This document shows, one piece after another, positions 4,205 to 51,441 of a DNA stretch of 64,000 bases. The stretch covers positions 285,341-349,340 of the forward strand of contig JAKRSD010000020.1 of assembly GCA_022402535.1 (NCBI GenBank). The letters run 5' to 3'. Each line of letters starts with the position of its first letter. The first letter of the stretch is position 1. A program made the translations under genes and the position numbers. The notes beneath the pieces are model-generated. The model ran no database searches. It was given only the letters and a program-made list of their open reading frames with translations, and had not been told where the DNA came from. The stretch comes from Flavobacteriales bacterium (GTDB taxonomy: Bacteria > Bacteroidota > Bacteroidia > CAIKAF01).

Positions 4205-6859
4205 TTATCGTTTAAACCCGATTGCAGGATTTTCTTTACGGGTTGTATCAATCGTTTTTAAATCGGCCAAATCTATGGGTAGAAGGGTTTCCATCAGTTC
4301 GGGAGTTCGATTTTCCGGTATAGTACCCGCCATACGCAGGTGCTGATTTCTAACGGCCTGCTGTATCACTTTCCGCACTTCGCGGGCATTGCCAAAATAC
4401 ATATCCTGCTTGTGATTGAACATTTCGGCAAAATGGTGTTTAAGTCGGGCGGCCGCTTCCGCGTCGGGCACTAAATTTTCTTTTAACAACATGGATATGC
4501 CTATATGATAAAGCTCATCGGCGGTGTAGTCTTCAAATACGAAGTAATGCTCAAAACGGGAGCGCAGTCCCGGATTAGAATTTAGGAATTCATTCATGTT
4601 TTGGGGATATCCGGCAGCAATTACAATAAACTCATCGCGCAGGTCTTCCATGCGTTTAAGCAGGGTATTCACCGATTCCTTACCAAAATTATCATCGGGC
4701 CCCTGATTCAGCGAATAGGCTTCATCGATAAATAAAATCCCACCGAGGCTTTTTTCCACCATTTCGGCTGTTTTTACCGAGGTTTGCCCCACATAACCCG
4801 CTACCAAAGAAGCCCTGTCGCACTCCACCACATGACCGCGTTCCACCACGCCCAGTGCCCTAAATATTTTAGCCATAATGCGGGCTACAGTCGTTTTTCC
4901 TGTTCCCGGATTTCCCACATACAGCGCATGCATGCTGAACTGATTGAGCACATTTTTTCCGGTTTCGCGGTAGTATTTCACCAGTTTTACCATTTCCTGC
5001 ACACTCTGCTTCACCGACTGAAGCCCGGTAAGGCTGTTCAGGTCATTCATGGCTTCTTCAAGAAGCTCTTTATCTATCTGAAAGTCAGAAACAGGCTGTC
5101 CATTTTTACCAAAAATCTGCTGCACATCGGACAGGGTGAGTTTTGAAAGCTCTTCTACGCTAAGGTTTTGGTAATTATGTTCTCTGACGAGACGCAAAGC
5201 CATATTCATTTTGGCTTCGTCCACCACAGAAATTACATATCGGGCATTGCCAAACGTTTTATTTCGGTCGCGATAAGCTCTTGTAAACTCAGTAAACAGC
5301 AGTTCTTCGGCTTCGGGCGTTGCCGCCAGATGTCTTTTAGCCATTGCCGAACGGGCAATGCTGAGCATTTCTTCGGGTGTGTAATCGGCAAAATGAAAAA
5401 ATGTACTGAAACGGGATTTGAGTCCGGGATTAAAATCAATAAACCGTTTCATTTCTTCGGGATATCCGGCTGCCAGTATGGCAATGTCGCCGGGGCCGTC
5501 GCTCATTTCTTTCAGAAGAATTTCAATCACTTCCTGCCCAAAATCTTTTGAATCTTCGCCGCTGCGAACCAACGAATACGCTTCGTCTATGAACAATATG
5601 CCGCCTCTGGCGCGTTCAATGGCTTTTTTCACCTTAGGAGCCGTCTGTCCCACAAATTCAGCTACCAAATCCGCGCGATCCACTTCGTACACATGCCCCT
5701 TTGAAAGCAGACCCAAGGCTTTGTAGATACCGCCCAACATTTTGGCAATGGTGGTTTTTCCGGTTCCGGGGTTTCCCTGTAAAATGGCATGCAGGCTTAT
5801 TTTTTCCTGCGCCTCGATTCCCAGATTTTTTCGGTGTGAAGTGAATTTTAAATAGCCCACATAATCATTAATCTGTGATTTTATCTGCTCTAAACCTATC
5901 AGACTGTTCAGTTCCTTGAGTTGTTCTTCGAGGCTAAGTTTAATTTCTTCGGCTGACTTCACTTCTGATTTCGCAAGGGTAAGATTTTCTCCGGGATTCA
6001 GCACTTCGGCATCACCGGGAACAAACTCATCTCCGATTTCAAAAGGAACTACGGCCATCAATCTGTCCATAAATACTACCCTTACAGAATATTTGCCTGG
6101 AGTCCAGAACAGTTTGTTGTCGTTTCCGCGTCCGTTGCTCCAGATGTTTCTGCCGGGCTTCATTTCCCTACGCGAGGAGATTACCGATTTTTTGTTGCCC
6201 GTTTCTTTCAGAAAATAATAAAACAGCTCGCACTGCCAGTCAAAATTCAGTTTGTTTTTCAGCGTAACTTCTACGTTTACAAAGCGGGTTTCGCCCTGTT
6301 TAAACGCTTTGGCCAATACCGGTTTTTCTGAATCTGAATTGGAAGAGGACGACTCGAACAGGCCGATTTTTTCAATTTCAAAAAACACATTATTACTGCT
6401 GTCTGGGTGCGGTAGGTCATAAATATAAAATGTAGACTCCAACACCTTCACTCCGTCTATATATGCCCGCCACACATATTCGCCATCAAACCAGAAACCC
6501 GGTTCTTTTTTGCCCCGGGACACCAGATACAGATTGGTTTCGCGGAGTACTTCACATTCAAATTCATCATCAATAATGTGTTTTTCTACCGTATTGGTGT
6601 TTGACTTTAATTTATCCACCACATAACGCACTTTGCAGGTCCAATTTTCTTCATCAAACAATTTGTTGAAAAACGAAAACTCCGCAAACAGTCCTGTTTC
6701 ATTTAATTCTGCCCGGGTGTAAACCGTTCTAAAAATTCTGTATGCCCCTTCGGAAGAATAAAACCACTCATCTTTAGCAAATAGGCGCAGGGCATTAACT
6801 TTATATTTTACAAAATCGGGGTTATCTTTTTTGGTCAGGTTCTTTTTCCAGAGGCTCAT
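4205..6859 (-). CDS. Double CbxX/SpoVK-type AAA+ ATPase with paired N-terminal beta domains
   Basis: A large cytoplasmic ATPase (884 residues from the ATG at 6859; a GTG at 6916 would add 19). The C-terminal two thirds hold two AAA+ modules of the CbxX/CfqX/SpoVK family, each with an intact Walker A (GNPGTGKTT, near residues 360 and 650), Walker B (GGILFIDEAYSL) and a pore/sensor region (AAGYP..M..F...NPGL.SRF). The N-terminal 300 residues hold two related beta-rich segments, each with NKL..W.C near the start and a GxYxxR strand near the end, followed by IYD or IGD. So both halves look duplicated. Substrate unknown; CbbX-like remodelling of a protein partner is inferred. Confidence 0.8.
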   Translation of the reverse strand: MSLWKKNLTKKDNPDFVKYKVNALRLFAKDEWFYSSEGAYRIFRTVYTRAELNETGLFAEFSFFNKLFDEENWTCKVRYVVDKLKSNTNTVEKHIIDDEFECEVLRETNLYLVSRGKKEPGFWFDGEYVWRAYIDGVKVLESTFYIYDLPHPDSSNNVFFEIEKIGLFESSSSNSDSEKPVLAKAFKQGETRFVNVEVTLKNKLNFDWQCELFYYFLKETGNKKSVISSRREMKPGRNIWSNGRGNDNKLFWTPGKYSVRVVFMDRLMAVVPFEIGDEFVPGDAEVLNPGENLTLAKSEVKSAEEIKLSLEEQLKELNSLIGLEQIKSQINDYVGYLKFTSHRKNLGIEAQEKISLHAILQGNPGTGKTTIAKMLGGIYKALGLLSKGHVYEVDRADLVAEFVGQTAPKVKKAIERARGGILFIDEAYSLVRSGEDSKDFGQEVIEILLKEMSDGPGDIAILAAGYPEEMKRFIDFNPGLKSRFSTFFHFADYTPEEMLSIARSAMAKRHLAATPEAEELLFTEFTRAYRDRNKTFGNARYVISVVDEAKMNMALRLVREHNYQNLSVEELSKLTLSDVQQIFGKNGQPVSDFQIDKELLEEAMNDLNSLTGLQSVKQSVQEMVKLVKYYRETGKNVLNQFSMHALYVGNPGTGKTTVARIMAKIFRALGVVERGHVVECDRASLVAGYVGQTSVKTAEMVEKSLGGILFIDEAYSLNQGPDDNFGKESVNTLLKRMEDLRDEFIVIAAGYPQNMNEFLNSNPGLRSRFEHYFVFEDYTADELYHIGISMLLKENLVPDAEAAARLKHHFAEMFNHKQDMYFGNAREVRKVIQQAVRNQHLRMAGTIPENRTPELMETLLPIDLADLKTIDTTRKENPAIGFKR

Positions 6860-49574: not shown

Positions 49575-49600
49575 TAAAAAAAGCAGGTTAAACCTGCTTT
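49575..49600 (-). terminator. Terminator of the Crp/Fnr regulator gene
   Basis: AAAGCAGGT (49580-49588) and ACCTGCTTT (49592-49600) form a 9-bp stem; on the minus strand it is followed by seven T. It lies 6 bases after the regulator's stop. Confidence 0.85.
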
Positions 49601-49606
49601 ATCTTT

Positions 49607-50239
49607 TTATCTGAGCCATTCGAGTGTGTTTCTGCCGAGTTTTACTTTTCCGTCTTCTTCCATTTTTTTCAGAAGACGGGATATAACCACCCGGGAAGAA
49701 CCTAAATCGCCGGCAATCTGTTCATGGGTCATGCGGATTTCTTTAGATCCGGTTTCCCGCGCTAGTTTTTTGAGAAAAAACTCCAATCTTTCATCCATAC
49801 TTTTAAAGGCTACGTTTTCCAGAACTTCCAACAATTCTTCAAAACGGTCACGATACGTGGTAAGTACAAAAGAATACCAGGATTTGAACCGGCTCATCAT
49901 TTCAGGCATTTTATCTACCGGAATGGAAAGCACAGTGGTTGTTTCTGATGCCACGGCATGAAGGTAACCCGGTTGATTTTGTCCTCCGCATATCATGCTG
50001 ATGGCACAGCTGTCGCCCGGATCCAGAAAGTATAGGAATATCTCGTTACCGTCTTCATCAGAGCGGTACACTTTTATTTGTCCATTCAGCACCAACATGG
50101 CCGATCGAAGAAACTGGCCATAACGGATGAGCACCTCTCCTTCCTGAAAATCTTTTACAGTGCCCTCTTTAGCCAGATAATCCACCAATTCTTTTTCAAA
50201 AAGTGGAAATTTTTCTTTCAGCAGTTCTTCTTTGGTCAT
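49607..50239 (-). CDS. Crp/Fnr family transcriptional regulator
   Basis: A 210-residue regulator: N-terminal cyclic-nucleotide-binding-type beta barrel (VLIRYGQFLRSAMLVLNGQIKVYRSDEDG; FLDPGDSCAISMI) and C-terminal winged helix (MTHEQIAGDLGSSRVVISRLLKKMEEDGKV). No N-terminal Fnr-type cysteine cluster is visible, so an iron-sulfur sensor of the Fnr kind is unlikely. Placed next to sulfide-oxidation genes, so control of SQR and the MBL-rhodanese unit is a reasonable inference. Follows the ion-channel gene by 20 bp on the same strand. Confidence 0.88.
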   Translation of the reverse strand: MTKEELLKEKFPLFEKELVDYLAKEGTVKDFQEGEVLIRYGQFLRSAMLVLNGQIKVYRSDEDGNEIFLYFLDPGDSCAISMICGGQNQPGYLHAVASETTTVLSIPVDKMPEMMSRFKSWYSFVLTTYRDRFEELLEVLENVAFKSMDERLEFFLKKLARETGSKEIRMTHEQIAGDLGSSRVVISRLLKKMEEDGKVKLGRNTLEWLR

Positions 50240-50259: not shown

Positions 50260-51111
50260 TTATACAGTCGCCTTTTCGGCTTCAGCCGCTTCTTCTTCCT
50301 GTTTCTTTTTTAGCTGTTTTTGTTCATCCATAATTACCTGATAATTGTTCAGAATGGCGCCGACCAAAAGATTCAACAGTAAAAAAGCAGAGAGAATAAA
50401 CCACAAAATATGAAATGTGGTAATAATGGTTTCGGATGAATGAATTAAACCCATTTCATTAGCCAAAATAAGATTGTATCGAATGTCGGTCCAATCTTCC
50501 CCGGTTAGAATTCTAAAAAGCGTAAACATGGTTTCGCCCAGTGTTCCGTAAGGGTCGGGGGCAATGGTGGGTGCATTAGGGGCCAGTTCGGAGTATTCCG
50601 TAAGTTTGGCGGCCACTTCAGGTGATGCATTTGCCGCATCGGGTAACTTAAATAGCGTAACTCCAATGATGGAAAACAAATACATAAAAATAAAAAAGAA
50701 CAAGGCATTGTACGATAGCGCACTGAATGAACGGATAAGCACCGAAACAATCAACTTAATCTCTGGCGCGGCGCGGAATAGACGCATAACCCGGAAAACC
50801 CGAAGCACACGGATGGCTGTAACCATGCCTGCTTCTGAGAACATGGATTCGGGTATGAAACTGACAATCACAATGGATAAATCAAATACATTCCACCCAT
50901 CGCTGAAAAAGGATTTCACACTGTCTTTGGCAATCCAACGGACAATAATTTCGAATGTGAATATATAAAGTGCCGCACTCTGAATACCATGAATCAACGG
51001 TGTGGTAAAATAGGTTTCTACACCAATTAACACACTGTTTACGATAATTACCAGAATGATAAAAATTTCAAAGATTTTAGAATTTGCGAGTCGTTTTGCT
51101 TGTGAAATCAT
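50260..51111 (-). CDS. Voltage-gated cation channel with Ca-type selectivity filter
   Basis: A 283-residue six-helix channel of the NaChBac/NavAb fold. S4 shows five Arg at every third position (AIRVLRVFRVMRLFRAAP), S5-S6 enclose an extended turret (about 40 residues rich in Ala, Pro and acidic residues) and the pore loop TGEDWTD at T203-D209. Bacterial Na channels have TLESWxx; here the Asp at 206 and 209 match the acidic positions that make an engineered NavAb calcium-selective. A charged coiled coil ends the protein (DEQKQLKKKQEEEAAEAEK). Probably co-transcribed with the Crp/Fnr gene. Confidence 0.87.
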   Translation of the reverse strand: MISQAKRLANSKIFEIFIILVIIVNSVLIGVETYFTTPLIHGIQSAALYIFTFEIIVRWIAKDSVKSFFSDGWNVFDLSIVIVSFIPESMFSEAGMVTAIRVLRVFRVMRLFRAAPEIKLIVSVLIRSFSALSYNALFFFIFMYLFSIIGVTLFKLPDAANASPEVAAKLTEYSELAPNAPTIAPDPYGTLGETMFTLFRILTGEDWTDIRYNLILANEMGLIHSSETIITTFHILWFILSAFLLLNLLVGAILNNYQVIMDEQKQLKKKQEEEAAEAEKATV

Positions 51112-51141: not shown

Positions 51142-51441
51142 TTAAATAATTTCCAATACGGTTCTGAAAGCGGCCGCTTTATCTCCATATCGTTCTATAT
51201 GCTCTTTTTGTAATGCCGGCGCAAATTCGGTCTGATAGTTTTCCAACACCTCATGCGATTCGCAGGTATACTGAATGGCATAGGTTACCCCGGAGTTTTC
51301 GCCGGTAACCACTTTCAGAATCCGAAACTCGGAAAACATACCGGTAGCCATTACATCCGGAATGTGTTTTGTGCGCATCCATGCAAGCCAATCATGGGCT
51401 ATTTCAGTATCTACGCTTACGGTTACGTTGTATATAATCAT
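51142..51441 (-). CDS. DUF4286 family protein
   Basis: A 99-residue soluble protein with the DUF4286 pattern: MIIYNVTVSVDTEIAHDWLAW, then HIPDVMATGMFSEFRILKV and YAIQYTCESHEVLENYQ. The fold is probably a dimeric alpha-beta barrel like the antibiotic-biosynthesis monooxygenase group. No catalytic residues can be named. It ends 30 bp before the channel gene on the same strand. Confidence 0.83.
   Translation of the reverse strand: MIIYNVTVSVDTEIAHDWLAWMRTKHIPDVMATGMFSEFRILKVVTGENSGVTYAIQYTCESHEVLENYQTEFAPALQKEHIERYGDKAAAFRTVLEII

Follow-up and report, generated by a model that had tools for sequence, protein, structure and literature searches.

A single-domain voltage-gated channel with a TGEDWTD filter from a Flavobacteriales bacterium and its clade of bacterial relatives

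The gene at positions 50,260 to 51,111 of the window (the whole stretch of 64,000 nucleotides analysed) codes for a real single-domain voltage-gated ion channel with the selectivity filter TGEDWTD. In trees built from protein sequences this channel falls in a new and strongly supported clade, distinct from canonical BacNavs, AnclNav-type channels and Cav repeats. The clade is apparently undescribed, TGEDWTD being absent from the open-access literature searched; judged by title and abstract, most of the papers there containing TGEDW concerned ion channels or drugs acting on them, and a bacterial channel was the subject of none. The explanation best fitting the data as a whole, a homotetrameric depolarisation-opened cation channel that prefers Ca2+ over Na+, is given an even chance.

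A long-standing question is what decides between Ca2+ and Na+, the residues of the filter or the backbone around them, since nearly identical seven-letter filters have opposite effects in NavPp and in mutants of NavAb. In the clade described here the pore would be naturally symmetric, with a filter that has the TGEDW core of Cav repeat II and is one residue away from that of NavPp, and residue swaps could therefore test position 2 directly. If Ca2+-selective, these proteins would add a second type to the native calcium channels of bacteria. A calcium pore of repeat II type would follow a route other than the position-4 glycine of CavMr, and symmetric calcium pores like repeat I/III and like repeat II would then make a complete pair.

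Architecture and filter register

The reading frame was present exactly as initially annotated, and its identification as a voltage-gated cation channel with a Cav-like filter was supported by domain, fold and filter register. A Pfam search of the channel protein gave a full-length match to Ion_trans (PF00520) over residues 12–264 (E 1.3e-44, 152.6 bits), and the only other Ion_trans match in the genome was a potassium-type channel (TVGYG) at C9. The AlphaFold2 model, obtained with 18 family members (mean pLDDT 83.9), showed the canonical six-transmembrane order of S1–S5, a turret helix, P1, filter, P2 and S6. The top Foldseek matches in the PDB were CatSper (7eeb_B first), CavAb, NavMs and NavAb, with best E values of 8.4e-9 to 3.5e-8. 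The TM-scores reached only about 0.55, as is expected because the model is a monomer in which the orientations of sensor and pore are free. CatSper subunits are likewise single-domain calcium-channel subunits, from eukaryotes; different ones assemble into a heterotetramer, joined by accessory subunits. Six transmembrane segments, with P1, filter and P2 between S5 and S6, place the protein among the single-domain Ion_trans channels; having one repeat in 283 residues, it is not a four-domain eukaryotic Cav with four repeats per polypeptide. The features are listed in Table 1.

Table 1. Features of the channel gene and its immediate neighbours (window coordinates)
Feature	Coordinates	Strand	Residues	Remarks
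Channel gene	50260..51111	-	283 aa	ATG start; single-domain 6TM voltage-gated cation channel subunit
S1–S3 of voltage sensor	50860..51078	-	12–84	AlphaFold2 helices; N25, F51, E54 and D77 invariant (18-row alignment)
S4	50770..50832	-	94–114	R101, R104, R107, R110, R113; sequence and 18-row alignment
S4–S5 linker and S5	50650..50766	-	116–154	Model helix 116–154
S5–P1 turret	50542..50649	-	36 residues	Ends DPYG, no cysteine, net charge −3; sequence
Pore helix P1	50503..50541	-	191–203	AlphaFold2
Selectivity filter	50485..50505	-	T203-G-E-D-W-T-D209	Codons ACC GGG GAA GAT TGG ACC GAC (DNA 50505–50485); sequence, register to Cav repeat II and CavAb, clade conservation
Pore helix P2	50455..50493	-	207–219	AlphaFold2
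S6 and cytoplasmic helical tail	50266..50433	-	227–282	AlphaFold2
Crp/Fnr-type regulator gene	49607..50239	-		20 bp downstream of channel; Pfam cNMP_binding and HTH_Crp_2
DUF4286 gene	51142..51441	-		30 bp upstream of channel; Pfam
Terminator-like hairpin	49580..49600	-		Separates Crp/Fnr gene from sulfide-oxidation genes

The five spaced S4 arginines of the initial annotation were seen, in the pattern R-x-x-R-x-x-R-x-x-R-x-x-R running from R101 to R113. The first four were invariant in 18 sequences and the fifth was Arg or Lys. Together with the invariant S2/S3 countercharges E54 and D77, these residues point to retained voltage sensing. The turret, described earlier as long and acidic, is long but only mildly acidic, its net charge of −3 lying within a family range of 0 to −5. 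In most clade members it is likewise free of cysteine, has 35–38 residues and ends in DPYG or DPFG, the exceptions being L074, where it is shorter, and the second channel gene of L034, where it has 63 residues. An acidic turret serving as a calcium funnel was rejected, the charge being modest and not conserved. The whole channel protein contains no cysteine.

The filter was confirmed at residues 203–209, with E205 at the HFS position, D206 at HFS+1 (the 'beacon') and D209 at HFS+4. In a pore-only phmmer search against solved structures, FRILTGEDWTDIRYN aligned without gaps with repeat II of Cav1.1 and Cav1.2 (F-Q-V/I-L-T-G-E-D-W-N-S-V-M-Y), and CavAb (4mvz) was also matched across the filter. 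The family profile paired LTGEDW with the LTGEDW of Cav1.2 repeat II, and AlphaFold2 located the filter between the P1 and P2 helices. These three approaches agreed and gave no shifted placement of TGEDWTD, so that the misalignment named beforehand as grounds for dropping the calcium assignment was not encountered. The stated closeness to eukaryotic GEDW filters holds as far as repeat II is concerned. The comparison with CavAb applies at HFS+1 and HFS+4, both Asp; at HFS itself Glu205 stands in place of Asp, and the protein therefore shares only two CavAb aspartates out of three. An acidic HFS ring with Asp or Gly at HFS+1, characteristic of the calcium-channel class, is present as E205 and D206.

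A rare and separate clade

In bacterial and archaeal genomes a scan gave 15 loci of about 50–67% identity, the hosts being Flavobacteriales MAGs of marine origin, Bacteroidales of the gut and Opitutales (Ereboglobus and a Puniceicoccales MAG). Further members were supplied by a Bacteroidales sample, in which the channel was present in 5 of 295 genomes, the seed included. Samples around the Flavobacteriales and Puniceicoccales members yielded nothing beyond clade members already known, no member besides the window's own was present in an even sample of 395 Bacteroidota genomes, and none occurred in 15 other genomes of the window's order. The clade is rare and patchy, being sparse in Bacteroidota and Opitutales (two phyla). 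Spread by phage or plasmid was rejected, members being missing from phages, viral contigs and plasmids; the plasmid matches were other channels at about 30%. The idea of a foreign patch was also discarded, the G+C content of the gene (0.39–0.42) being within the range of its surroundings.

The maximum-likelihood tree joined all 22 rows in one clade (support 100/99) with a long stem, apart from the TLEDWTD/TLEGWVD channels of AnclNav type and from the TLESWSM channels related to NavMs and NavAb. When repeats of Cav1.2 and Cav3.1 were added in a second tree, the clade was recovered at 100/100 and the Cav repeats grouped together (97/94) apart from it. Reference rows are few in both trees, and the clade's deep position is provisional; NavPp and CavMr are represented by stand-ins with identical filters (L004–L007). 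The window protein differs from canonical BacNavs, which have a TLESW filter, a short turret and a position with NavMs and NavAb, by its TGEDW core, 36-residue turret and placement outside the NavMs/L038 group. In neither tree did it group with the TLE[D/G]W[T/V]D channels that make up the AnclNav type.

The filter is kept beyond chance, since TGEDWTD was found in 20 of the 22 rows at about 47–67% overall identity to the window protein. The two exceptions are TGDDWAG (L072) and TGDDWTI, the latter in the second channel gene of L034.

Several related loci were recorded. In the Puniceicoccales MAG two co-oriented channel genes lie about 75 bp apart (L034:5956-6837 and L034:6912-7871), one with TGEDWTD and the other with TGDDWTI and the 63-residue turret; this pair is a candidate for a bacterial channel built of two different subunits (a heteromer). 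In Thermocrispum agreste DSM 44070 two channel genes are adjacent (L037:5089-5907 and 5911-6822), each with the filter TGESWPD; they are another tandem pair, from a second lineage in which filter position 2 is Gly. Two delta-proteobacterial MAGs carry a TFEDWTD channel (L039:2157-3794, L040:5200-6831) whose N-terminal region, as read from the open reading frame only, would be long, at about 270 residues. Close relatives in the window's bacterial family (L004, L005, L006) are without a TGEDW channel and have AnclNav-type channels with the exact NavPp (TLEDWTD) and CavMr (TLEGWVD) filters. Near-identical channel copies were found on two contigs of one MAG in two cases: in L027/L028 the entire neighbourhood is duplicated, probably because two strains were binned together, and in L022/L023 the neighbours differ.

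Ion selectivity

Four copies of the gene product would assemble as a homotetramer into a cation channel opened by depolarisation, in which the S1–S4 sensor would move four or five arginines and the S5–P1–filter–P2–S6 parts of the four subunits would form the pore. In the filter, Glu205 (HFS), Asp206 (HFS+1) and Asp209 (HFS+4) would each form a ring of four, above Gly204. Such a 12-carboxylate filter would bind Ca2+ and admit it ahead of Na+ (PCa/PNa above 1), and depolarisation would therefore yield Ca2+ influx. As to export, two Na/Ca exchanger-family genes (four domain matches, two ORFs) suggest that a route out of the host could exist; the family is ordinary, being present in 11 of 14 control genomes.

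The known channels nearest in filter sequence differ in instructive ways. NavPp of Plesiocystis pacifica (AnclNav group) is likewise a single-domain bacterial voltage-gated channel and shares six of seven filter residues (TLEDWTD); it has Leu in place of Gly at position 2, and by filter type it falls with AnclNav-like rows, outside the TGEDW clade. CavMr of Meiothermus ruber, also AnclNav, is another native bacterial voltage-gated channel with Asp at position 7, but its TLEGWVD filter is of Cav repeat I/III type, with Gly at position 4 where Asp stands here, and its L6 loop has a disulfide (PMC10120453), the window protein being free of cysteine. CavAb, engineered from NavAb (TLDDWSD; fold match 5klb, E 2.2e-8), shares Asp at positions 4 and 7 and differs by Asp at 3 (Glu here), Leu at 2, Ser at 6 and a short turret. 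Repeat II of Cav1.1 and Cav1.2 has the identical LTGEDW core and a similarly long S5–P1 turret, but is one of four non-identical repeats per chain with a residue other than Asp at position 7; Cav turrets have disulfides (PMC10120453), and the trees keep Cav repeats and clade apart.

The initial annotation expected calcium conduction, which is plausible and partly supported by the effect of Asp in NavAb: S178D alone raised Ca over Na permeability about 100-fold, and a filter changed to TLDDWSD makes CavAb (PMC10120453). This reading is further favoured by the full-length Ion_trans match, the Cav1 repeat II register, the PCa/PNa of 13.8 retained by CavMr carrying the full NavPp filter TLEDWTD (PMC7041947), and Gly at position 2 as in Cav1 repeats II (TGEDW) and IV (TGEAW), where Ca passes. 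Against it, native NavPp with TLEDWTD has a PCa/PNa of 0.308 and is blocked by Ca (PMC7041947), the NavAb change L176G, at the position of G204 here, created a cavity and brought partial block by Ca, Mg and Sr (PMC10349818), one filter gives different selectivities on different backbones, and the position-7 Asp is missing from TGDDWAG and TGDDWTI. Since NavPp, CavMr and NavAb L176G behave differently by backbone, the filter letters alone leave selectivity undecided: they support strong interaction with Ca2+, be it permeation or block. A Ca-permeable channel (PCa/PNa above 1) is given about an even chance. High Ca selectivity, a subset of that reading, is put at half that likelihood, and Ca2+ permeability as such is likelier than very high selectivity at the CavAb level (above 100). 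Similarly doubtful is a native homotetrameric calcium channel with four repeat II-type filters made selective by the HFS+1 Asp ring over the position-2 Gly, L034 possibly having a two-subunit heteromer.

The alternatives to preferred Ca2+ entry are of unequal weight. A voltage-gated channel like NavPp, conducting Na+ or poorly selective among monovalent ions and blocked by external Ca2+ bound at the acidic filter, is a serious possibility, somewhat short of an even chance. NavPp differs at position 2 only; its Ca block persists in T6S (TLEDWSD) and is apparently stronger in T6A (TLEDWAD), which passed no inward current in divalents (PMC7041947), and the partial block in NavAb L176G agrees with this. 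The NavPp filter moreover occurs in three Bacteroidota AnclNav-group rows (L006, L007, L050), one from the window's bacterial family. The clade, however, is separate from the AnclNav group in both trees, therefore the NavPp backbone may not apply, and the same filter in CavMr leaves Ca preferred.

CavMr owes its PCa/PNa of 218 to the Gly at position 4; G4D lowers the ratio to 7.7, and in G4D and G4S discrimination among monovalent cations is lost (PMC7041947). A wide acidic filter need not select, and the window protein might be a non-selective channel for Na+, K+ and Ca2+ serving membrane-potential or osmotic signalling rather than calcium entry, but the retention of all seven filter residues in nearly every row suggests selection for a specific ion and makes this improbable. 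The likeness to Cav repeat II might also reflect descent, through a pore ancestor in common with the eukaryotic repeat or a gene acquired from a eukaryote, as the identical LTGEDW core and a patchy distribution that includes gut bacteria of animals would allow. This is very improbable and was rejected: the tree with the Cav1.2 and Cav3.1 repeats gave it no support, the NaChBac voltage sensor and S5 scored 120.7 bits versus at most 96.6 for any Cav1.2 repeat shown, and repeat II of Cav3 is TQEDW, not TGEDW.

Gene neighbourhood

The channel gene had been described as likely co-transcribed with the Crp/Fnr regulator gene, which stands next to sulfide-oxidation genes. The two genes are adjacent with a gap of 20 bp, and co-transcription is plausible from this arrangement. 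Beyond the hairpin lie an MBL-rhodanese gene (PDO-like), a rhodanese gene, a Tll0287-like gene and an SQR-like gene; the hairpin evidence is weak because 10 terminator-like sites were counted in the region versus 7.6 ± 2.7 in shuffled sequences, near chance. The Bacteroidota promoter consensus (TTTG...TANNTTTG) had no site near the channel gene, and its matches were at chance level. At the 20 other member loci no homologue of the Crp/Fnr, PDO, SQR or DUF4286 genes lay in the flanks of the channel (up to 6 kb), and among member loci no operon partner is conserved beyond close relatives. The Crp/Fnr regulator is not a conserved partner of the channel, and a general functional tie of the channel to sulfide oxidation was rejected. 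Of 25 other Bacteroidia genomes, at least 7 have a homologue of this regulator beside a PDO or rhodanese gene, at most 1.5 kb away; since this compares with none of the 20 channel loci, the regulator is more likely a sulfur-metabolism gene with the channel as a local neighbour. The regulator contains a C-x5-C motif (DPGDSCAISMICGG) that recurs in several homologues, including two that adjoin PDO genes, and judged by this motif it could serve the sulfide genes as a sensor of thiols or persulfides.
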